DNA from: Gemmatimonadaceae bacterium
Lineage (GTDB): Bacteria; Gemmatimonadota; Gemmatimonadetes; Gemmatimonadales; Gemmatimonadaceae
Reading direction: 5' to 3'
Assembly: GCA_026786185.1 (NCBI GenBank)
Contig: JAJAYP010000071.1
Coordinates: 1 to 39,353 of the forward strand
DNA length: 39,353 bases
Made by a program: the position numbers and the translations under genes. Under the pieces are notes generated by a model. It was given only the letters and a program-made list of their open reading frames with translations, was not told the origin of the DNA and did no database searches. Numbering within the stretch: the stretch's first letter is position 1; each line of letters opens with the position of its first letter. Positions 3,042 to 20,668 of the stretch are shown in pieces.

Positions 3042-3443
3042 CTAACGGCTGTGCTTGTAGATCAGGTTCAGGAGCTCGTCGTACATGGGCTCCGACTGCT
3101 CGGGGCCCGACCTGATGGCGGCAGTGGCGCAATGCTTCAGGTGGTTTCGCATCAGCTCCCGACCCACCGACCGCAACGCTTCATGCACGGACGAGATCTG
3201 CGTCATGATGTCGGCACAGTAGCGGTCGTCCTCCACCATCTTCTGCAGTCCGCGCACCTGCCCCTCGATCCGGCGCAGCCGCTTGATGTTTCGATCCTTG
3301 GCATCCGGATCCACCGCGAGGGCCTTCCGACCGGCGTCGGCCGCGTCAGGCAGCGCGCATCCACACTGAAGCACGGGCAGTTCGCCCGTACTCGCCTGCT
3401 TCGCACTGCGCTTCTTCGTCACACGGGTCGTTTTCTCCTTCAT
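3042..3443 (-). CDS. csoR: CsoR/RcnR (DUF156) family metal-sensing repressor
   Basis: [58 protein letters not shown] shows the C...H-x3-C CsoR-type ligands; N-terminal extension has CGC. Confidence 0.92.
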
Positions 3444-5860
3444 GCGAAACGTGCCCGGCGCAACCTGAGGCTGTTCATCACGCCGCTCACAGAACTGAAT
3501 GCCATCGCCGCGCTGGCCAGGATGGGGCTCAGCAGCAGTCCGAACGCGGGATAGAGCGCGCCGGCCGCGACAGGAATGCCGATGACGTTGTAGACGAAGG
3601 CCCAGAACAGGTTCTGCTTCATCGTCCGCATCGTGCGCCGAGAGACCGCGATCGCCTGCGGCACACTCCGCAGGTCGCCGCGCATCAGCACGACGTCCGC
3701 TGCCTCGATGGCGATGTCGGTGCCGGTGCCCATCGCGATACCGACGCTCTGCGCCATGGCGGCCGCGTCGTTCACGCCGTCACCCACCATCGCCACCACT
3801 CGACCCTCTGCCTGCAATCGCTTGATCTCGGCCACCTTTCCATCGGGCAGCACGCCCGCCACGACGCGGTCGATGCCGGCCTGGCGTGCGATCGCCTGCG
3901 CTGTCCGTTCGTTGTCGCCGGTGAGCATCACCACCTCGAGCCCCATATCGTGGAGTCGCGCGATCGCGTCGCGCGAGCTGGCACGAATCGGATCGGCGAC
4001 CGCCATGAGTCCCGCCAGCCGTCCGTCGATCGCGGCGTACATCGGAGTCCTCGCCTCGCTCGCGAGCGCCGCGGCACGCTCGCCGAGCGGCGCGACGTCG
4101 ACGGTGTGCTCCAACATCAGCAGCTCGTTGCCCACCGCAACCGTCCGGCCGTCAACCATTCCCACCGCGCCGCGTCCACTCACCGACTTGAATCCGGTCG
4201 GTGTCGCGAGCGTCAGGCCGCGTTCCTTCGCGTACCGCACGATGCCATCCGCGAGCGGGTGCTCGCTCATCGTCTCGACGGCGGCGACGAGCGCGAGCAG
4301 CTCGTCATCGGTCATCGTCACGCCCGGAGCGCGCACGATGTCCGTCACCGTGGGCCGGCCTTCGGTGACGGTGCCCGTCTTGTCGAGCGCGATTGTCGTG
4401 ATGGTGCCCAGCTCCTGGAGCGCCTGTCCGCCCTTGATGAGGATGCCGAGTTCGGCACCCTTCCCCGTCGCCACCATCACCGCCGTCGGCACCGCGAGGC
4501 CCATGGCGCACGGGCACGCGATGATCAGCACGGCCACCGCCGCAGTGAAGGCACGCACCGCGGGCGCCGTCACGCCGTTGACGTTGCCCGCCACGAACCA
4601 GACGACGAACGTCGCGATCGCGAGCGACATGACGACGGGCACGAAGACGCCGCTCACCCGATCGGCGAGCCCCTGGATGGGGGCTCGCGAGCCCTGGGCA
4701 TCGCGCATCAGCTTGACGATCTGCGCCAGCGTGCTGTCGGCGCCGAGCGTTGTCGCGCGGTAGCGGAGCGCCCCGGTGCGGTTGATGGTGCCACCAATCA
4801 CGCGGTCGCCGGCGTGCTTTTCCACCGGTACCGACTCGCCGGTGAGCATCGACTCGTCGACGGCGCTTTCGCCCGTCTCCACGTCGCCGTCCACCGCGAG
4901 CCGCTCACCAGGCCTGACGAGCACGAGATCCCCTGCGGCGACCTCCGCGATGGGGACATCGACCTCTTCATCGCCCGCACTCCCCGCGCGGACGAGTCGC
5001 GCCGTTTTCGGCTGGAGCCCAGCGAGCGCGCGCAGCGCCGACGATGTCTGCTTCTTCGCTCGCGCTTCGAACGCATTGCCCGTGAGGATGAGCGCGATGA
5101 TGATGATGACCGCTTCGTAGTAGACGTCGGGCGCGAGCCCGCGGCTGGTGAAGAACGCCGGCGCGACCGTCGCGATCACGGAGTATACGAAGGCCGCACC
5201 GGTGCCGACGGCGATCAGCGTGTTCATGTCCGCCGCGTGATGCCGGAAGGCGGCCCACGCGCGGGTGTAGAAATGGCGTCCCGCCCACGACATCACCGCG
5301 ATCGTCACGACCAGCAGCGTCCAGGTGATCGTCCATACCGGCACCTCGTACAGCCAGGGCATCACGGCGCGATGCAGCGGCTCGAGCACACGAGACGCCC
5401 ATCGCATGAAGGGATCTCCGCTCGCGCCGCTCGCCTGATGCGCCCCCATGCCGACTCGGCTCATCAATGGCATGGACACGATCATCGCGATCGCGCCAGC
5501 GATGCCGCTCACGATCGCCTTGCGCCGGAGATCGTCGAACTCCTCCGTCTGCGCCGTGTCGCGAGCCGCCTGCTCTTCGAACGCTGTCTGGTCAGCGACG
5601 GGCAACTCCGCGCCGTACCCGGTGGCGCGAATGTGCTCGACGAGCGCGTCGGGACGGATCGCCGCCGGATCGTATGACACGGTCGCGTTTCCCATCATCA
5701 GGTTCACTGCGGCATCGGAGACGCCAGGAACCTTGTTGAGCGTACGCTGCACCCGGCTCTGACAGGCGGCGCAGGTCATCCCCGTCACGGGAATGACCAC
5801 TTTCTCGGTGGCGGCGCGAGCCGGTACAGGTTCGGGCAGGCTGGTGTTCGTGGCGGTCAT
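3440..5860 (-). CDS. copA: Copper-exporting P1B-type ATPase with one HMA domain (GMTCAAC) and CPC motif
   Basis: [37 protein letters not shown]. Start taken at [11 protein letters not shown] (5860) rather than the track start at 6202. ATGA overlap with csoR. Confidence 0.95.
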
Positions 5861-5865
5861 CCTCG

Positions 5866-6252
5866 TCACTCCGCGATCAGGCGTCCATGGAGCATGCCCA
5901 TGCCGCAGGTGAATTCGTACGTGCCCGCCTTGGGTGGAGTGATTTCCACCGTGGTCTTCTGGTGCTCGGGCAGAAAGCGGCGCACGCCGAAGTCGGGGAA
6001 CACGACTTCCTCGGAGCAGCTCGAGTTTTCCTGACGGTCGAACACGAGGCGAACGGGCTGCCCCGCCGTGGCGCGGATGGTCGATGGCGAGTAGCCGCCG
6101 CGGACGACGATCGCGATCTCCTGCCGCCCCGCTCCACCGACCGCGGCGACCGCAGCGTTCGCGAGGCCACGCTCGGCCAGGAAGAAATACCAGTTGACCC
6201 ACGCCACGGCGGCAACGCCGGCGGCAATGACGATCCAGTCGATCGGCTGCAT
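5866..6252 (-). CDS. Membrane-anchored cupredoxin-domain protein
   Basis: [26 protein letters not shown] anchor followed by a cupredoxin-like fold ([48 protein letters not shown]). Confidence 0.85.
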
Positions 6253-8175: not shown

Positions 8176-9492
8176 CTACGGCTGACGCCGCGCGCGCGAC
8201 GACCAGTGAATGGCGCGAATCCGCCACGCACCGTCCGCGCCGCGTGTGAGCACCATCAGCTCCGAACCCGCGGAGTTCACGGCCTTCCCACGATACTCGC
8301 CCTGCGACACACTCGTCGACGACGCCCACGCCGCGTTTCCCTCGATGACCACGTGCACGGGCGAGCTGACACTTTTCACGGCGCGCGCATAGGCCATGTC
8401 GGCCGGCAGGTGATGACTGCGATACTCCGCCAGTGATTCGATCCCGCCACTCTCCAGCACCACGGCGTCCGGTGCGAGCAGTGCGAGCGCGGTCGCACTG
8501 TCACCCGAGGAAAGCGCGGCGTCGTACCGATGCACCACGGCCGCGACCGCGGCTGAATCGCTCGTCGAGCTTGCGGCCGGCGAGCCCGATCGCGCGTCCG
8601 TTCCCGTCGCGAACACCATCGTCGCCCAGTGAACGTCCCAGTCGGACCCGGAACCCGCCGCCGCGGAAAGAATCTGGATTCCCCGGACATTCCACATGCC
8701 CGGCCGATCGACCGGGATGCGGATCGTCCCGGCCGCGTCGGTCGTCAGCGACCGGTCGCCCGACGCGCTCCGTCTCGCCGCGCCCGTGTCCGCAAGTGTG
8801 CGCTCCCCGTTCCACGCGATCGCGCCCGCGTGCACGTGCGCGCCGACGAGTGGCTTTCCGAGGAGGAGCACGCGCACCGACAGCGTGTCGCCGATGCGCA
8901 GCGAGGCGGGATCCCGTAGCGGAACGAATTCGAGAGGATGACCGGCGATCCGTTCGAAAGCACGCGGACCTCCGCGCCCCACCTCGACGAACGTCTTGGC
9001 ATACTTCGCGTACCGTCGAGTGAGGCTGTCGCGCGAGCTCGCTGGTGCGAGCCGGCCCTCGCGTTCGTAGCGCGCCACCGCTTCCGGCGCGCCTTCCAGC
9101 ATCATGTAGCGCCGAAAGCTCGCTGGCGTCTCCCGCACCGATCGCGGAACGAGCGCGAGCGCGACGATGTGCTGGCCGGTGGTCGACACCGGATGCCGGA
9201 TCAGGAGCGAGGTGCCCGACACCGATCGTTCTCCGAGCGGTGCGTCGCCCGCGGCGCCGATGATGCGCGCGTCGGCGAGCCGGTCCGTCGCCACCGCGGA
9301 CTTGCTCGTTGGAAAGAGGCTCGACGTCTGCCCACGCAACTCGAGCGTGCTGCCTTCGGCAAGCTGGAATGCGTTGGGGATCACCCAGAAGTCATCGGCG
9401 GAGAGCGTGGTCGTGGAGCCCAGGAGGCCAGCGAGGAGCCCGATGACGGCGGCCGAGCGAGCCGCGAAGCGTGCGCGATGCGTGTGGGTCAT
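8176..9492 (-). CDS. Secreted DUF4198-like protein fused to a SnoaL/DUF4440-like domain
   Basis: N-terminal part: DDFWVIPNAFQLAEGSTLELRGQTSSLFPTS... DTLSVRVLLLGKPLVGAHVHAG... C-terminal part: AAVAAVVHRYDAALSSGDSATALALLAPDAVVLESGG... GSELMVLTRGADGAWRIRAIHWSSR. Start at 9492. Confidence 0.75.
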   Translation of the reverse strand: MTHTHRARFAARSAAVIGLLAGLLGSTTTLSADDFWVIPNAFQLAEGSTLELRGQTSSLFPTSKSAVATDRLADARIIGAAGDAPLGERSVSGTSLLIRHPVSTTGQHIVALALVPRSVRETPASFRRYMMLEGAPEAVARYEREGRLAPASSRDSLTRRYAKYAKTFVEVGRGGPRAFERIAGHPLEFVPLRDPASLRIGDTLSVRVLLLGKPLVGAHVHAGAIAWNGERTLADTGAARRSASGDRSLTTDAAGTIRIPVDRPGMWNVRGIQILSAAAGSGSDWDVHWATMVFATGTDARSGSPAASSTSDSAAVAAVVHRYDAALSSGDSATALALLAPDAVVLESGGIESLAEYRSHHLPADMAYARAVKSVSSPVHVVIEGNAAWASSTSVSQGEYRGKAVNSAGSELMVLTRGADGAWRIRAIHWSSRARRQP

Positions 9493-9654
9493 GAGAGACA
9501 GTCGGGTGGCGGGTGATCGCGTACTCGATTCGGTACCGAACAACTCGGTCGGCGCGTTTCAGTTGGAACGATAACTGCCAGCCCGTGCAGAAGCACACGA
9601 GGCCGGCTCCTCCATCGCGACTGGCCACAGAACAATCTGACACGAGAGGACCCC

Positions 9655-10023
9655 ATGGCAGCCATCGAGCTCGGCACCTACCTGCGCGGTACCGCCAAGA
9701 AGTACCACGAATGCATCGAAGCGTGCGTCGCCTGCCTCGTGGCGTGCGAAATGTGCTCCGATGCGTGTCTCGACGAAAAGGACGCGAAGATGATGCTGGC
9801 ATGCATCCGCCTGGATCGCGACTGCGCGGACGCATGCACGGCGGCGATCCGCGTCATGTCGCGCGGCGGACCGCTCGCCGCCGATGTGTGCCGAGCTTGC
9901 GCCGCGGCTTGCGATGCCTGCGCCAAGGAGTGCGAGAAGCACGCGGCGCACATGGATCATTGTCGCTTGTGCGCCGAGGCGTGTCGTCGATGCGCCGACG
10001 CGTGCCGCAAGATGGCGGCGTGA
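9655..10023 (+). CDS. Cys-rich four-helix-bundle copper-binding protein (Csp / DUF326-like), apparently cytosolic
   Basis: 122 aa with repeated CxxxC/CxxC spacing (YHECIEACVACLVACEMCSDAC...CRACAAACDACAKECEKHAAHMDHCRLCAEACRRCADAC); no signal peptide. Confidence 0.9.
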   Translation: MAAIELGTYLRGTAKKYHECIEACVACLVACEMCSDACLDEKDAKMMLACIRLDRDCADACTAAIRVMSRGGPLAADVCRACAAACDACAKECEKHAAHMDHCRLCAEACRRCADACRKMAA

Positions 10024-10075: not shown

Positions 10076-12463
10076 ATGAAGACGACGACGGTACAGATCG
10101 ACGGCATGATGTCCATGTTCGACGGTGCCGGCGTCGAGAAGCGGATCGGTCGCCGCGATGGAGTGGCGGAGGTCCACGCCAACTTCCTGAGCGGCACGGC
10201 GACCGTCGTGCACGACGAGACCCGTGTCGCGGCCGCTGAGCTTCAGGCGCTCGTCGACGACTGTGGGTATCACTGCCGCGGCGAAGTCGTACCGGCACAC
10301 GTGTGCGAGCCGGATCCGCCACGCGACGCAGGTAGTGCGCACTCGAATCACGCGCAGCCGGCAGCGGGTGTCGCCCCTGGCGATGATCATTCCGGCCATC
10401 GAGCGACAGTGGCCGCCCCCCCGACCGCCGACATGGCGCACGGCATGGGGCACGGCGTCGGCGAGTCGATGGACGACATGGTGCGCGGGATGCGCACCCG
10501 TTTCTTCGTCACGCTGGCACTCACCATCGTGGTGTACCTCTACACCCCGATGTTCGCGAACATGACCGGCGTCTCATTGCCGACGCCGTTCGGCATTTCG
10601 AGGGCGCTGGTGGGCTTCATCGTGGTCACGCCGGCGGTCGTGTACGGCGGCTGGGTCTTTTACGTGGGAGCATGGCGCGCGCTGAAGAACGGCGTCGCCA
10701 ACATGGCGGTGCTCGTGTCGCTCTCTGTGATGGCGGGCTACCTCTTCAGCGTCGGCGCCACCTTCTTCTTCACGGCGGAAGTGTTCTACGAAGCGGTCGC
10801 CATGCTGCTCGTCTTCATCCTGCTGGGACACTGGCTGGAGATGCGCGCGCGTGCCGGTGCGTCGAAATCCGTACAGGCGCTGTTGAGTCTCGCCCCGCCG
10901 AAGGCCACGGTGATTCGCGACGGCCAGCCTGTCGAGGTTCCGACCGCTGACGTCGCCATTGGTGACATCGTGATGATCCGCCCCGGTGACAAGCTGCCAG
11001 TGGACGGTGAGGTGAGCGACGGCGAGTCCAACGTCGACGAATCCATGATCACCGGCGAAAGCATGCCGATCAGGAAAAGCGTTGGCGACACCGTGATCGG
11101 TTCGACGATCAACAAGACGGGGACGTTCCGCTTCCGCGCCACGAAGATCGGCGCGGACACGGCACTCGCGCAGATCGTCAAGCTCGTGCAGTCCGCGCAG
11201 AACTCCAAGGCGCCGTCCCAGCGGCTCGCGGACAAGGCCGCGCAGGTGCTCACCATCTCGGCCGTCGTCTTCGGCGTCGCCACATTCGCTGTGTGGTTCT
11301 GGGTTGCTGGCTCGACGGCCGTCTTCGCGATGCTGCTGGCGATCACGGTCGTCGTGATCGCCTGTCCCGACGCGCTCGGACTCGCCACCCCGATGGCGAT
11401 CATGGTCGCCAGCGGCAAGGGAGCTCAGAGCGGCATTCTGTTCAAGGACGCCGTTGCGCTCGAAGAGGCAGGAAGGCTCCAGGCGATCATCTTCGACAAG
11501 ACGGGCACGCTCACCATCGGGCAGCCGCAGGTCGTCGAGCTCGTGGTCGACGGCACAGGCGTCACCGACTCGGAGCTGCTCCGGCTCGTTGCCTCGCTCG
11601 AGCAGTCGAGCGAGCATCCGCTGGCGCAAGCCGTGATCGAGAAGGCGAACGCTGGTGGTGTGACACTCAGCGCGCCGTCACAATTCGAAGCGATACCGGG
11701 GCACGGTGCGCGGGCGACTGTCGACGGGCGCTCCGTGCTCGCGGGCAATCGGAAGCTGATGACCGACAATCGTGTGGAGCTTGGTGGACTCGGTGAGCGC
11801 TCGCAGTCGCTCGAGCAGCAGGGCAACACCGTCGTCTACGCCGCCGTCGATGGAAAGCCGGCCGGTCTGATCGCCATCGCGGACGCGATTCGTCCCAATG
11901 CGAAGCAGGCAATCGACCGCCTCGCCGCGCTCGGCATCGAGGTGGCGATGCTGACGGGAGACAACCAGGGGACCGCCAACCTCGTTGGAACGGCGCTCGG
12001 CATCAAGACGGTGTTCGCTGAAGTACAGCCGGGACAGAAGGCGGACAAGGTCAAGGAGATGCAGGCGCGCGGACTGCGAGTCGGGATGGTCGGTGACGGC
12101 ATCAACGATGCGCCGGCGCTCGCGCAGGCTGACGTTGGCATCGCCATCGGCGCTGGCACCGACGTGGCGATGGAGACAGCCGACGTCGTGCTGATGAAGA
12201 GCGATCCATTCGACGTGATCGGCACCATCATCCTGAGTCGCGCGACGCGGCGCAAGATGCGACAGAACCTGTGGTGGGCGGCGGGCTACAACGTGATCGC
12301 CTTTCCGCTCGCCGCCGGCGTGCTGTATCCGTGGACCCGCTGGCTGCTCAGCCCCGAAGTCGCCGCGCTCTCGATGTCGGGCTCAACCCTGATCGTGGTG
12401 GCCAACGCGTTGCTTCTGAAGCGCGTGAAGATGGGCGCCCTGAGCGGCAGGAGCGGTGACTGA
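10076..12463 (+). CDS. Heavy-metal P1B-type ATPase with CPD membrane motif and HMA-like domain lacking CxxC
   Basis: MKTTTVQIDGMMSMFDGAGVEKRIGRRDGV (no CxxC); DCGYHCRGEVVPAHVC; Met/His linker MAHGMGHGVGESMDDM; ITVVVIACPDALGLATP (CPD at 11363-11371); DKTGTLT; GDGINDAPAL. Confidence 0.93.
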   Translation: MKTTTVQIDGMMSMFDGAGVEKRIGRRDGVAEVHANFLSGTATVVHDETRVAAAELQALVDDCGYHCRGEVVPAHVCEPDPPRDAGSAHSNHAQPAAGVAPGDDHSGHRATVAAPPTADMAHGMGHGVGESMDDMVRGMRTRFFVTLALTIVVYLYTPMFANMTGVSLPTPFGISRALVGFIVVTPAVVYGGWVFYVGAWRALKNGVANMAVLVSLSVMAGYLFSVGATFFFTAEVFYEAVAMLLVFILLGHWLEMRARAGASKSVQALLSLAPPKATVIRDGQPVEVPTADVAIGDIVMIRPGDKLPVDGEVSDGESNVDESMITGESMPIRKSVGDTVIGSTINKTGTFRFRATKIGADTALAQIVKLVQSAQNSKAPSQRLADKAAQVLTISAVVFGVATFAVWFWVAGSTAVFAMLLAITVVVIACPDALGLATPMAIMVASGKGAQSGILFKDAVALEEAGRLQAIIFDKTGTLTIGQPQVVELVVDGTGVTDSELLRLVASLEQSSEHPLAQAVIEKANAGGVTLSAPSQFEAIPGHGARATVDGRSVLAGNRKLMTDNRVELGGLGERSQSLEQQGNTVVYAAVDGKPAGLIAIADAIRPNAKQAIDRLAALGIEVAMLTGDNQGTANLVGTALGIKTVFAEVQPGQKADKVKEMQARGLRVGMVGDGINDAPALAQADVGIAIGAGTDVAMETADVVLMKSDPFDVIGTIILSRATRRKMRQNLWWAAGYNVIAFPLAAGVLYPWTRWLLSPEVAALSMSGSTLIVVANALLLKRVKMGALSGRSGD

Positions 12464-12491: not shown

Positions 12492-13721
12492 TTACTTGAT
12501 CACCACGCCTGTCAGGTACAGCACGAGCATCCCGGCGAGCACACCGCCGAATGTCGTCATCGGCCGCGCCCGGGCCGATGCGTTGTTCCAGACCATCTGC
12601 CGCCCGATCGCGTACGCCACCTGAAACACCGCGCCCGCGCCGATGGCGAGGAAGAGCACCGACAACGCCTGCACGTTGACGAGACCACCCACCCACGCGC
12701 CCACGATGGCCGGAGCGCCGCCAATGAGCCCGAGGAATGCCAGCGTCCGGAGCGACGGACGATCCTTCGCCAGCGGCACGACGATCCCCAATCCCTCCGT
12801 GATGTTCTGGATGATGAACCCCACGACGAGGAATGTGCCGAGTGTCGCCGCACCGACCGCGTAGGCCGCACCGATCGCGAGCCCTTCGCCCAGGTTGTGC
12901 AACCCGATGCCGAGTGCGATCACCAATGCCAGTGAGCGCCGTTGACCGATCTCGTCGCGCCCGATGCTTCGCTGCCGGCGACTGAGCGCGTCCAGCAGAA
13001 GCCACGTGCCCACGATGCCGATCCCCACGATGCCCACACCCTGGAACGCCCCGCCCAGACCGCTGGTCATCTCCAGTGCTTCGGCCGTGGCATCGAGACC
13101 CAGGTAGAGCAGCAGACCCACCGTCGCCGCCATCAGGAACAGCATGGTGCCTGCGCCGAGCTGCTTCAGCGCGGGAAGCCAGAGCATCCCGAGCAGCACC
13201 GGCAGGATGCCCACGTACAGTCCGATGAGCGTGAAGCTCCACAACGTTGCGGCAGACGCACGAGGCGTTTCGGCCGCTACCGCAATCGTGTGCGCGAACG
13301 GTATCGAGTTGCTGGACAGGATCCCGATCTCGTATGCCTCACCCACTACCCATGGGTAGCGCAGCGTCACGACCGCGCTGCCGAGTCGCGAGATCTCTCG
13401 TGATGGCACGGCCTCGTACGGCCAGATCGCGTCGTTGATGTTCACCTGCGCAAGGGTGATCGCTTCAGGACTCGTGTTCCGCACGTGCATCTCGATCTCG
13501 CCCGGACGCAGGATCGTCCGCCCGAACTGCACGGTTTCGATCGGCGCGGCCGGCGCGACGTTGAGGCCAGCGCCCTGCGTGTAGACGAAGAGCGCGATCA
13601 CACCGGCCAGCAGCACCAGCGGCAATGCGAGCAGGAAGATCGTGCGCAGACCCTGCCGGCGGACGGGCTGGGCATCGGGCGTTGCCGAGACGACCGGTGC
13701 GGTGTCGGTCATCGTGCTCAT
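12492..13721 (-). CDS. ZIP-family metal transporter with additional N-terminal periplasmic beta-domain
   Basis: ALGIGLHNLGEGLAIG and IIQNITEGLGIVVPLA are ZIP signatures; extra N-terminal TM plus APIETVQFGRTILRPGEIEMHVRNTSPEAIT... Start at 13721 overlaps the upstream stop (ATGA). Confidence 0.85.
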   Translation of the reverse strand: MSTMTDTAPVVSATPDAQPVRRQGLRTIFLLALPLVLLAGVIALFVYTQGAGLNVAPAAPIETVQFGRTILRPGEIEMHVRNTSPEAITLAQVNINDAIWPYEAVPSREISRLGSAVVTLRYPWVVGEAYEIGILSSNSIPFAHTIAVAAETPRASAATLWSFTLIGLYVGILPVLLGMLWLPALKQLGAGTMLFLMAATVGLLLYLGLDATAEALEMTSGLGGAFQGVGIVGIGIVGTWLLLDALSRRQRSIGRDEIGQRRSLALVIALGIGLHNLGEGLAIGAAYAVGAATLGTFLVVGFIIQNITEGLGIVVPLAKDRPSLRTLAFLGLIGGAPAIVGAWVGGLVNVQALSVLFLAIGAGAVFQVAYAIGRQMVWNNASARARPMTTFGGVLAGMLVLYLTGVVIK

Positions 13722-14857
13722 GCGTCCACCTGAAAGATTCCCGTCCACCCCAGTTCGGCGAACTCCGTCTTGTGCGCGTGGAACATGTAGCGGCCAGGAT
13801 GCTTGAAGCTGAACTCCAGTATGCCGCGCTGTCCCTGCATCTGGGCGACGGTGTCGGTGAACTCGCTCGGCGTGAGGCTCGTACCCGTCGGGTAGTACTG
13901 AAAGAAGTTGGCGTGCAGATGAAACGAGTTGCTCTGGTCGTACTCGAGCACGTTCACCAGATACACGCGCACCGTCTCGCCGACCTTGAGCACGATGGGA
14001 TGCCGGTCGTAGTGAAACGGAATCCCGTTCACCATGTAGAAGTCGTTCGACCCGTCGAAATCGACGTCGTAGCCGCTCATTACCATCACCAGCTCTCGAT
14101 CGACCGGAGGCCGGCCCACCTTGGGATCGACGATAAATGCGCCGTAGAGTCCCTTGGCGATGTGCTTGGCGAGTGGTGCGGTGTGGCAATGATAGAGGTG
14201 CAGCCCGAAGGGCTCGGCGTCGAAGTCGTACGTGTAGGTCCCCCCGGGCGCCACTACACCGGACCGCATGTCGAACACACCGTCCATGCTGCCCGGATGC
14301 ACACCGTGAAAGTGCAGGCTGTGCGGGTGATCGCTCGCGTTCAGGTGGGTGATGCGCACGCGATCGCCTTCAGTCACTCGAATCGTGGGACCCGGCACGC
14401 GCCCGTTATACGTCCATGCGGCGAACTGCACGCCGGGCACGACCTCGATCGTCTTGTTCTGCGCCACCAGCGTGTATTCGCGCAGCGTCTGTCCGTTCGG
14501 CAGCGTGCTCACCTTGCCCCCGTCGAAATCGACGAGCATCTCCGAGGGGTTGAATCCGTTTCGCACGTGGTTGACTTCGCCGACGACGGCAGGCATGGGG
14601 TGCATCGCCCCGTGCGCGCTGGCGGAGTTCGTGCCGATCGCGCCGGGCCGCGGGGGCTCATACGGACCAGGACCCTGCGCGCCACCGCCGAGTATTGCGG
14701 CGCGAGCTTCGCTCGAGATGCCAAGCGCGGCCGCGCCCAGCAATCCCGTGCCGCCGACGCCGGCGAGAAGAAATTTGCGGCGCGAGACTCGGCTGTCATC
14801 GCTCTGGATGGCGTTCGTCTGCTCGGCGTCGCCGTCTGTGTCGGAAGGATTCTTCAT
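13718..14857 (-). CDS. Tat-exported multicopper oxidase (two-domain laccase-like)
   Basis: SRRKFLLAG Tat motif; HSLHFHG, HLYHCHT, NSFHLHANFF and HPGRYMFHAHKTEFAELGW copper motifs. Confidence 0.93.
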   Translation of the reverse strand: MKNPSDTDGDAEQTNAIQSDDSRVSRRKFLLAGVGGTGLLGAAALGISSEARAAILGGGAQGPGPYEPPRPGAIGTNSASAHGAMHPMPAVVGEVNHVRNGFNPSEMLVDFDGGKVSTLPNGQTLREYTLVAQNKTIEVVPGVQFAAWTYNGRVPGPTIRVTEGDRVRITHLNASDHPHSLHFHGVHPGSMDGVFDMRSGVVAPGGTYTYDFDAEPFGLHLYHCHTAPLAKHIAKGLYGAFIVDPKVGRPPVDRELVMVMSGYDVDFDGSNDFYMVNGIPFHYDRHPIVLKVGETVRVYLVNVLEYDQSNSFHLHANFFQYYPTGTSLTPSEFTDTVAQMQGQRGILEFSFKHPGRYMFHAHKTEFAELGWTGIFQVDA

Positions 14858-17484: not shown

Positions 17485-17530
17485 TCACGTCTGACGCTCA
17501 CAGCTCGAGCCGTCAGCTCGGCCGTGGACG
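17485..17530. repeat. Dispersed copy of the AGCT-rich repeat element
   Basis: TCACGTCTGACGCTCACAGCTCGAGCCGTCAGCTCGGCCGTGGACGTG resembles the cores at 15855, 16061 and 16265. Confidence 0.7.
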
Positions 17531-20500
17531 TGCAACTTCAGTCGCGTGCACACGTCGCATCAGGAGTCGCTCCTTCCATAATGAATAGATCGCCGGAATG
17601 ACCACCAGCGTGAGGATGGTGCTCGTCACCATCCCGCCCACCATCGGCGCGGCGATCCGCTTGAGCACGTCGGCCCCGACGTCCTGACTCCAGAGAATCG
17701 GCAGCAGGCCGGCAATGATGGCGACGACGGTCATCATCTTCGGACGCACGCGCTCCACCGCGCCGTACTCCACCGCGGCATCGATGTCCACCCGCGACCT
17801 GATCGCGTCGCGCGCCGCGCGGTCGCGAAAGGCGTGGTCGAGATAGATCAGCATGATCACCCCGGTCTCCGCGGCGACGCCCGCCAGCGCGATGAATCCG
17901 ATGGCCACGGCCACGCTCATGTTGTAGTCGAGCAGCCACATGAGCCACACCCCGCCAACGAGCGCGAATGGCAGCGACAGCATCACGATCGCCGTCTCCG
18001 TCACGCTCCTGAAGTTGAAGTACAGCAGGCCGAAGATGATGAGCAGGGTGATCGGCACCACGACACGCAATCGCTTCGTCGCCCGCTCGAGCGATTCGAA
18101 CTGTCCAGACCACTCGATTCGATAGCCGGGTGGCAGCGTCACATTGCGCGCGACGACCTGCTTCGCCTCGCCGACGTAACTCCCGATGTCGCGGCCGCGC
18201 ACGTCCACGTACACCACGTTGTTGAGCATCGCGTTCTCGGACTTGATCAGCGTGGACCCTTTCACCACCGTCACCTGCGCGAGTTCGCCGAGTGCTACCT
18301 GAGCACCCGATGGGGTGGCGATGAGCACGTCGCGCACGCGGTCCGGATCGTCGCGCAACTCTCGCGGATAGCGCACGAGCACGTTGAACCGCTCGCGTCC
18401 CTCGATCACCTGCCCCGCATCCATCCCGCCCACGGCGGTGGCGAGCGCCATCTGCACGTCGTCGCTCGTCATGCCGTACCGCGAGGCGGCCGCGCGATCG
18501 ATCGTCACGTCGAGGTACCGACCACCCACCGCACGCTCGGCGAACACCGATCCGGTGCCTGCGACTGAGGGCAACACGCCTTCGACTTCCTTCCCGATAC
18601 GGTCCAGCGTCGACAGGTCGGGCCCGAAGATCTTGAGTCCGACCGGTGTCTTGATGCCCGTCGCAAGCATGTCGAGCCTGTTCTTGATCGGCATCGACCA
18701 CATGTTCGCGACCCCCGGCGTGTTCACCGTATTGTTCGCTTCGGTGACGATGGAGTCGTAGGTCACCCCCGGTCGCCAGTCCTTCCGGTCCTTGAGGATG
18801 GCGATCGTCTCGATCATCGACATCGGCGCCATGTCGGTGGCGCTCTCGGCGCGCCCGATTTTCCCCATCACCGTCTTCACTTCCGGGATGCGCGCCAGCG
18901 CCGCATCACGCTGCTGCAAAATCTGCTTCGCCTGGGCCGAGCTCACGCCGGGAAAGAGCGAGGGCATGTCCATGATCGAGCCTTCGTTGAGCGGCGGCAT
19001 GAACTCGCTGCCGATGCGCGACCATGGCAGCCACGTCGCCAGCAGGATGACGCCTGCCACGGCGATCGTCGGCCAGCGATGACGCAGCACGAGCTCGATG
19101 ACGGGACGGTACGCCCGTACCAGCACGCGATTCACCGGATTGGCCGACTCGGGCTTCACCCCCTTTCTCACGAACAGTCCCATCGCCACCGGAACCAGCG
19201 TCACCGAGAGCAGCGCCGCCGAGCCCATCGCGAGCGTCTTCGTCCAGGCGAGCGGCTTGAACAGGCGCCCCTCCTGATCCTGGAGCGCGAACACGGGGAG
19301 GAACGATGCCGTGATGATGAGCAACGAGATGAAGAGCGACGGACCGACCTCCTGCGCCGACTCGATCACCAGCGTCCAGTGGTCCTTGCCCGACTTCTCC
19401 GCGTCGTTGCGCTCCATGTGCTTGTGGAGGTTCTCCACCATCACGATCGCGGCGTCGATCATCGTGCCGATGGCGATGGCGATGCCTCCAAGACTCATGA
19501 TGTTGGCGCTGAGCCCAAGCGTGCGCATGGCGAGGAGCGCCATCAGCACGCCGATCGGCAGCGTCACGATGGCGACAAGCGCGCTCGGGGCGTGCAGCAG
19601 GAACAGCACCGTGACGAGCGCGACGATGATCGATTCCTCGATCAGCTTCGTCTTGAGCGTGCGGATCGCGCGGTCGATCAGTCCCGAGCGATCGTAACCC
19701 TCCACGAAGCGCACGCCCCGTGGCATGGCGCCTTCCAGCTCGGTCATCTTCCGCTTGACGCCGTCGATCACGTTGCGGGGGTTGGCGCCGTAGCGCATCA
19801 CCACCCAGCCCGTCACCACCTCACCCTTGCCGTTCAGATCCGCGATGCCGCGCCGGATCGCCGGTCCCACCTGCACGTCCGCGACATCGCCCACCGTCAC
19901 CGGTGTGCCACCCGGCCCCATGCCGATGGAGACACCACGGATGTCGTCGAGCGACGTGAACCGGCCGCGGGCACGGACCACGTACTCCGTTCCTCCCGCC
20001 TCGAGCACGCGACCGCCGACGTCGGCGTTCGAGGCGCGGACGGCATCGGTCACCTTCTGGATCGGGATGCCGTACGCGAACAGCTTCGCCGGGTCGACCT
20101 GCACCTGATACTCCTTCTCGAACCCGCCGAACGACGCGATCTCCGCCACGCCCGGCACCGCCGTCAGCGCCGGCCGCACGGTGAAGTCCTGCAGCGCACG
20201 AAGCTCGGCGAGATTGAGCGTGCCGCTCGTGTCGGCGAGCACGTACTGCATGATCCACCCGACACCGGTGGCATCGGGCCCGAGGGTCGTGGTCGCGCCT
20301 GGCGGAAGCTTGCCGGCGATGCCGTTGAGGTACTCGAGCACGCGCGAGCGGGCCCAGTACAAATCAGTGCCGTCCTCGAACACGACGTACACCGCCGACA
20401 GTCCGAACTGGCTCATCCCGCGCACGAACTTCGCATTCGGGACCTTGAGCAGCTCGGTTTCCAGCGGATAGGTGACCTGATCCTCCACGAGCTGCGGCGC

Positions 20501-20668
20501 CTGGCCCGGCCACTCGGTCATGACGATCACTTGCGCGTCGGACAGATCGGGAATCGCGTCGACCGAGGTGTTCAGCATCGCCCACACTCCGGCGATGATG
20601 AGCGCGACGGTGCCGATGCCGACGGCGAGCGGATGCGTGGCCGACCACGCGATGATGCGCTTGAGCAT
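17513..20668 (-). CDS. cusA: Cu(I)/Ag(I) efflux RND permease
   Basis: 1051 aa HME-RND. NEGSIMDMPSLFPGVS, NRLDMLATGIK and ASRYGMTSDDV keep the CusA-type Met positions. Confidence 0.93.
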   Translation of the reverse strand: MLKRIIAWSATHPLAVGIGTVALIIAGVWAMLNTSVDAIPDLSDAQVIVMTEWPGQAPQLVEDQVTYPLETELLKVPNAKFVRGMSQFGLSAVYVVFEDGTDLYWARSRVLEYLNGIAGKLPPGATTTLGPDATGVGWIMQYVLADTSGTLNLAELRALQDFTVRPALTAVPGVAEIASFGGFEKEYQVQVDPAKLFAYGIPIQKVTDAVRASNADVGGRVLEAGGTEYVVRARGRFTSLDDIRGVSIGMGPGGTPVTVGDVADVQVGPAIRRGIADLNGKGEVVTGWVVMRYGANPRNVIDGVKRKMTELEGAMPRGVRFVEGYDRSGLIDRAIRTLKTKLIEESIIVALVTVLFLLHAPSALVAIVTLPIGVLMALLAMRTLGLSANIMSLGGIAIAIGTMIDAAIVMVENLHKHMERNDAEKSGKDHWTLVIESAQEVGPSLFISLLIITASFLPVFALQDQEGRLFKPLAWTKTLAMGSAALLSVTLVPVAMGLFVRKGVKPESANPVNRVLVRAYRPVIELVLRHRWPTIAVAGVILLATWLPWSRIGSEFMPPLNEGSIMDMPSLFPGVSSAQAKQILQQRDAALARIPEVKTVMGKIGRAESATDMAPMSMIETIAILKDRKDWRPGVTYDSIVTEANNTVNTPGVANMWSMPIKNRLDMLATGIKTPVGLKIFGPDLSTLDRIGKEVEGVLPSVAGTGSVFAERAVGGRYLDVTIDRAAASRYGMTSDDVQMALATAVGGMDAGQVIEGRERFNVLVRYPRELRDDPDRVRDVLIATPSGAQVALGELAQVTVVKGSTLIKSENAMLNNVVYVDVRGRDIGSYVGEAKQVVARNVTLPPGYRIEWSGQFESLERATKRLRVVVPITLLIIFGLLYFNFRSVTETAIVMLSLPFALVGGVWLMWLLDYNMSVAVAIGFIALAGVAAETGVIMLIYLDHAFRDRAARDAIRSRVDIDAAVEYGAVERVRPKMMTVVAIIAGLLPILWSQDVGADVLKRIAAPMVGGMVTSTILTLVVIPAIYSLWKERLLMRRVHATEVARPRPS

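Follow-up and report, generated by a model that had tools for sequence, protein, structure and literature searches.

A P1B-type ATPase with a Cys-Pro-Asp transport motif in a gemmatimonad copper-resistance region: a probable Cu+ exporter of the named subtype P1B-3a

The stretch of DNA analysed here, referred to as the window, comprises 39,353 nucleotides of contig JAJAYP010000071.1 from a Gemmatimonadaceae bacterium and encodes two P1B-type ATPases together with several genes typical of copper handling (Table 1). The subject of this study, a 795-residue ATPase (P0001), is encoded by an uninterrupted open reading frame in which inspection found the catalytic motifs TGES, DKTGT, SEHP and GDGINDAP all unbroken. 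Its score of 622.9 bits against the heavy-metal ATPase profile TIGR01525 (cut-off 346) identifies it as a P1B ATPase, and it scores 604.6 bits against TIGR01511; both belong to the NCBIfam profiles for heavy-metal/copper P-type ATPases. The protein is 44% identical to the ordinary CopA of the same window, and the top structural match of its predicted full-length model is LpCopA (4bbj). This model, whose underlying alignment excluded rows from the plasmid collection, is of moderate quality (pLDDT 75), with poorly predicted stretches at residues 64-118 and 413-429, and for this reason the geometry of the metal sites was not read from it. The gene for a Cys-rich copper-storage (Csp) homologue ends 52 bp before the ATPase start codon on the same strand, and this arrangement suggests that the two are probably operon partners. 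The Csp assignment draws on DUF326 repeats and on 19 cysteines in 122 residues, the score against TIGR04401 (49.7 bits) lying below the curated cut-off of 100. Cytosolic Cu(I) is stored by Csp3 proteins, which are competitors of CopA (PMC6747150). The window also encodes a CopZ-like HMA protein and a cupredoxin and, judged by its gene content, is a copper-resistance region. Two other genes of the window may be recorded: an open reading frame at 3042-3443 that appears CsoR-like from a reading of its sequence only, and a DUF4198-domain protein (8176-9543, minus strand) that is divergent to the Csp-ATPase pair and has a homologue (L015:660-1466, 38% over 285 residues) near another gemmatimonad CPD pump.

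Table 1. Genes and protein features of the window, with positions counted from its first nucleotide
Feature	Position	Strand	Basis
P1B ATPase with CPD motif, subtype P1B-3a, 795 aa	10076..12463	+	ORF translation, profiles, tree
HMA-fold N-terminal domain, residues 8-66, without CxxC	10097..10273	+	Pfam PF00403, AfCopA alignment, model
Conserved Cys/His tail of the HMA domain, C63-G-Y-H66-C67-R-G-E-V-V-P-A-H75-V-C77	10262..10306	+	Motif scan, alignment
H/M-rich linker MAHGMGHGVGESMDDMVRGMRTRF, residues 120-143, ahead of the first TM helix	10433..10504	+	Alignment
TM6 metal motif C430-P431-D432	11363..11371	+	Codons TGT CCC GAC, within VVIACPDALGLATP
TM7 Y738-N739, kept as in copper pumps	12287..12292	+	Alignment
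TM8 M767-S-G-S-T771	12374..12388	+	Alignment; G769 kept across close CPD clade
Csp homologue, Cys-rich four-helix, 122 aa, 19 Cys, no visible signal peptide	9655..10023	+	Pfam DUF326, 53.7 bits
Second P1B ATPase, ordinary CopA, CPC and CxxC HMA	3440..6202	-	Homologous start at about 5800, ORF extends upstream
Multicopper oxidase	13718..14857	-	Annotation of window
RND efflux pump (CusA/CzcA type)	17513..20668	-	Annotation of window

The initial annotation, made from the letters of the DNA, had drawn attention to a CPD metal motif in this ATPase, and the motif is indeed present. It was read in all 86 of the close relatives retrieved (the best 80 of 416 genome stretches and six plasmid loci). 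Of 101 CPD genes, 58 use GAC and 43 use GAT for the aspartate, and the occurrence of both codons indicates purifying selection on the residue. A single base change would convert GAC to the histidine codon CAC, yet aspartate has been kept, which likewise points to selection. Chance and base-calling error are both ruled out as the source of the motif, since the aspartate is conserved in all relatives and both of its codons are used. The close CPD clade shows no variation at the copper-pump positions M210, E239, E255, D386, C430, Y738, N739, M767 and S770, which were mapped to LpCopA, and M210, E239, E255, D386, Y738, N739, M767 and S770 agree with the sites described for Cu-ATPases (PMC9433437). 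At position 769 in TM8 the close CPD clade carries glycine, in contrast to the leucine, phenylalanine or valine of CPH pumps and most CPC pumps.

The N-terminus of the protein is equally unusual. As the initial annotation had proposed, it is HMA-like and devoid of CxxC: Pfam PF00403 matches residues 8-66 with 30.5 bits (cut-off 24.8), residues 10-23 read GMMSMFDGAGVEKR, and alignment to AfCopA places S13 and D16 at the two cysteine positions of CxxC. The predicted domain superposes on CopZ (2qif) with a TM-score of 0.72 and an rmsd of 1.0, consistent with the ferredoxin-like HMA fold. A Pfam HMA match was obtained for each of the 30 relatives' N-termini tried, and none of the 102 CPD proteins scanned has a CxxC in this domain. 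The sequence DCGYHCRGEVVPAHVC at residues 62-77 and the H/M-rich linker that follows it were likewise found where that annotation had seen them. The exact pattern CGxHCxGExxPxHxC occurs in 56 of the 102 CPD proteins (13 of 22 non-redundant), and the linker residues M124, G125, H126, G129, M135 and M139 are nearly invariant among CPD relatives. Two CPD pumps (L142, L143) are missing the HMA domain altogether and retain an M-x-H-x-MGH linker; on the sequences compared, the linker is the more constant of the two elements. At one further locus with a CPD pump, a small stand-alone HMA-like protein without CxxC (L015:166-438) resembles the pump N-terminal domain.

A class for such proteins already exists. 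Cubillas et al. 2017 named the CPD subtype P1B-3a from three rhizobial proteins, those of Xanthobacter autotrophicus, Nitrobacter hamburgensis and a Bradyrhizobium sp., and the passages of that paper drawn on here define it by CPD in TM6, YN(X)4P in TM7 and MSGSS in TM8 (PMC5552934). P0001 has the first of these and the second as YNVIAFP, and its TM8 reads MSGST, a single conservative S-to-T change; threonine stands there in several other CPD relatives too, L012 and L142 among them. Plasmid genes of Nitrobacter, Bradyrhizobium and Xanthobacter, tied to the proteins of Cubillas et al. by organism and motif, encode proteins that align with 98-99% of P0001 at 56.0-56.5% identity and carry CPD, MSGSS in TM8, an N-terminus devoid of CxxC, the CGxHCxGExxPxHxC tail and the linker MAHEMGHGAGMDM. 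By this identity of about 56% and the same N-terminal architecture, rather than by the tree, from which the founders were left out, the window ATPase groups with the P1B-3a founders and, as judged from these comparisons, is a new member of a subtype already named from sequence. Those passages of Cubillas et al. describe a long, His-poor N-terminus; they mention neither the CxxC-less HMA domain with its Cys/His tail, nor the nearly invariant MGHG linker, nor the two additional CPD groups described below. The literature searched yielded no biochemical characterisation or metal assay of any CPD pump, in line with the initial annotation.

To place the CPD proteins among P1B pumps, a tree was built with CopA and ZntA of E. 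coli, SilP, CopF, TcrA and TcrB as reference rows. In it the CPD pumps join the CPH pumps in a single clade, set apart from all other P1B rows, CPC and ZntA-type alike, with 100% SH-aLRT support. When the motif residue was masked, the CPC and CPH pumps each formed clades (100/100) and the close CPD clade received support of 99/95. Two further CPD groups occur in Gemmatimonadota, one with CPDALGLATPTAVAV (L092, L148-L152) and one with CPDALALATP (L144-L147, L153), both without an HMA domain. The best tree implies two changes for the CPD motif, and a single CPD clade is not rejected (p-AU 0.25). Eight residues, W253, M256, L392, A396, P711, D713, K727 and A742, are common to the 17 CPD and nine CPH proteins tabulated, save for isoleucine in place of M256 in one CPD row; none of the nine CPC rows, ZntA included, has any of them. 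Placement in a characterised CPC or CPH clade, the outcome that the initial annotation had set against its own reading, is half borne out, in that the CPD pumps stand beside the CPH clade and outside it; this position favours copper as the cargo, short of proof.

Relatives of the pump, whose existence in genomes the initial annotation had indicated, proved numerous: a search across the genomes of 84,980 species recovered 416 stretches encoding them. The 86 CPD relatives come from Acidobacteriota, Chloroflexota, Gemmatimonadota, Pseudomonadota and Actinomycetota, and from plasmids as well. Within Gemmatimonadota, the window's own phylum, 16 of 298 sampled genomes gave a match at E <= 1e-180, and every readable protein from these 16 has CPD. 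Other genomes of the same genus contain no close orthologue, the best matches being 48-51% identical, and the nearest of the fetched relatives are from Acidobacteriota (L013 and L012), L013 being 87% identical over the core. Vertical inheritance within the genus is unsupported on both counts, and we infer from these comparisons that the ATPase gene was probably acquired horizontally. A contaminant contig is unlikely, as the neighbouring CPC CopA groups with that of a same-genus genome. Judged from its phyla and plasmids, the CPD clade as a whole is widespread and appears to have spread horizontally.

The genes that accompany CPD pumps elsewhere are mixed. By raw counts over the loci of the 86 relatives, DUF2933 is found in 31 (tblastn; 10 of 22 non-redundant loci), ICMT in 27 and multicopper oxidase in 19. 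In Alteromonas, DUF2933-ICMT pairs belong to copper-induced copA clusters (PMC8478169). Independent actinobacterial plasmids, of Rhodococcus and Nocardia, pair the CPD pump with a multicopper oxidase and with DUF305 or DUF2933. The Csp homologue adjoins just four of the CPD relatives searched and appears from this sample to be a local rather than a general partner. Genes for substrate-level energy metabolism were often seen beside CPD pumps (L006, L008, L010, L011, L038, L154, L155, L156 and about 20 Rhodobacterales loci), among them ppk2, acetate kinase, phosphoketolase, arginine deiminase/OTC/carbamate kinase, type II GAPDH, thymidine phosphorylase and aldolase/PGM/PGI. Directly upstream of the Enterococcus tcrYAZB copper operon (L133) lie genes for an aldolase and an aldehyde dehydrogenase.

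Taken together, the sequence evidence suggests that the window ATPase is probably an active CPD-subtype (P1B-3a) pump that exports Cu+, and perhaps also Ag+, from the cytosol. Cu+ export is favoured by the joint CPD and CPH clade, the eight shared residues, the Cu-ATPase site residues, the copper-type neighbours, the structural match to LpCopA and the cargo of the P1B-3 (CPH) class, which was once thought to be Cu2+ and is now held to be Cu+, as stated in a passage of PMC10654040 citing Purohit 2018. The initial annotation was right that the motif is unusual; its claim that classical rules give no cargo is too strong in view of the named subtype, this clade, these residues and the Cu+ now assigned to P1B-3 pumps. 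In the proposed mechanism, Cu+ would be delivered by the neighbouring Csp, CopZ or thiols and picked up by the H/M linker, by the relocated C63/H66/C67/H75/C77 cluster, or by both. It would then pass from M210 at the entry to C430/D432 and on to M767, with M210, E255 and D386 serving as entry residues, C430, Y738, N739, M767 and S770 as transport residues and E239 as the exit residue. The carboxylate of D432, weaker and protonatable in comparison with a tightly binding thiolate, would favour quick release, and the protein could thereby act as a lower-affinity, higher-capacity detoxification pump alongside the ordinary CopA of the locus. Several points count against Cu+ export. A carboxylate is a poor ligand for Cu+. 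The usual Cu+ docking site, CxxC, is absent, and in the DNA examined no copper genes are evident at many CPD loci, among them those of L012 and L013, the nearest two relatives; many of the neighbours are metabolic. Furthermore, the entry site of AfCopA consists of a methionine and both CPC cysteines, and Cu+ binding and function both suffer when one of these cysteines is lost (PMC9433437), so that aspartate in place of the second cysteine likely affects function.

The main rival explanation takes the Cys/Asp site to select a divalent or borderline metal (Zn2+, Co2+, Ni2+, Cd2+ or Cu2+), which would also account for the location in a metal island. Aspartate is a harder ligand than cysteine or histidine and is invariant here, G769 opens space beside M767 that could allow a higher coordination number, and the Cu+ docking cysteines have been lost in every member. 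Nevertheless, the clade shares its ancestry with the Cu+ pump CopB and keeps M767 and Y738-N739 of the copper pumps, which ZntA does not have, and the 25 commonest neighbour families include multicopper oxidase and DUF2933 and no zinc, cobalt or nickel transporter family; a divalent cargo is accordingly judged rather unlikely. A second alternative, that Cu+ is carried while D432 acts as a proton carrier or charge balancer rather than as a ligand, with export coupled to proton counter-transport, is improbable on present analysis. It draws on analogy with the acidic TM4 residue of P2-type pumps (PEGL motif): Ca2+-type pumps carry glutamate after the TM4 proline, at the place of D432, and AVPEGLP is visible in a P2-type protein of the same genome. 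Sequence, however, cannot separate a ligand from a proton carrier. That the protein is a transport-dead or regulatory copy, as the loss of both classical cysteine motifs might suggest, is very improbable given that members from five phyla show no variation in the catalytic and other transport residues, that variation in the Asp codon is purely synonymous and that the clade has a wide distribution with horizontal spread.

Guesses at what a metal pump carries are guided mainly by the residue that follows the TM6 proline, and a widespread CPD group breaks this rule. With CPD pumps so close to the Cu+ pump CopB, single-residue D, H and C variants in one scaffold could reveal the role of this residue, and the CxxC-less HMA domain with its new conserved Cys/His cluster raises a second question of metal binding; the roles of Asp432 and of the relocated cluster are well-posed questions. 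A broader proposal may tentatively be offered: that CPD pumps possess a mixed thiolate-carboxylate site new to metal ATPases, that they carry a different cargo or export Cu+ in a proton-coupled manner, and that the HMA metal site has moved from the CxxC loop to the C-terminal CGxHCxGExxPxHxC cluster. Equally tentatively, His-type pumps of the CopB kind may have evolved from inside the Asp group through one base change, GAC to CAC.

Compared with known systems, the window ATPase most resembles the P1B-3a founders, with which it shares CPD in TM6, YN(X)4P in TM7, the long N-terminus, the Cys/His tail and the MGHG linker, and from which it differs in having MSGST rather than MSGSS in TM8. With the P1B-3 pumps CopB and TcrB it shares a clade, with an ancestry apart from the CPC pumps, and the eight signature residues. 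In contrast, those pumps have histidine after the TM6 proline where the window ATPase has aspartate, together with a His-rich N-terminus and no HMA domain. The positions M210, E255, D386, Y738-N739, M767 and S770 are kept as in the P1B-1 pumps CopA, SilP and CopF; unlike these, which are marked by CPC in TM6 and an HMA domain with CxxC, the window ATPase has aspartate for the second cysteine, no CxxC and the eight residues of the P1B-3 signature.
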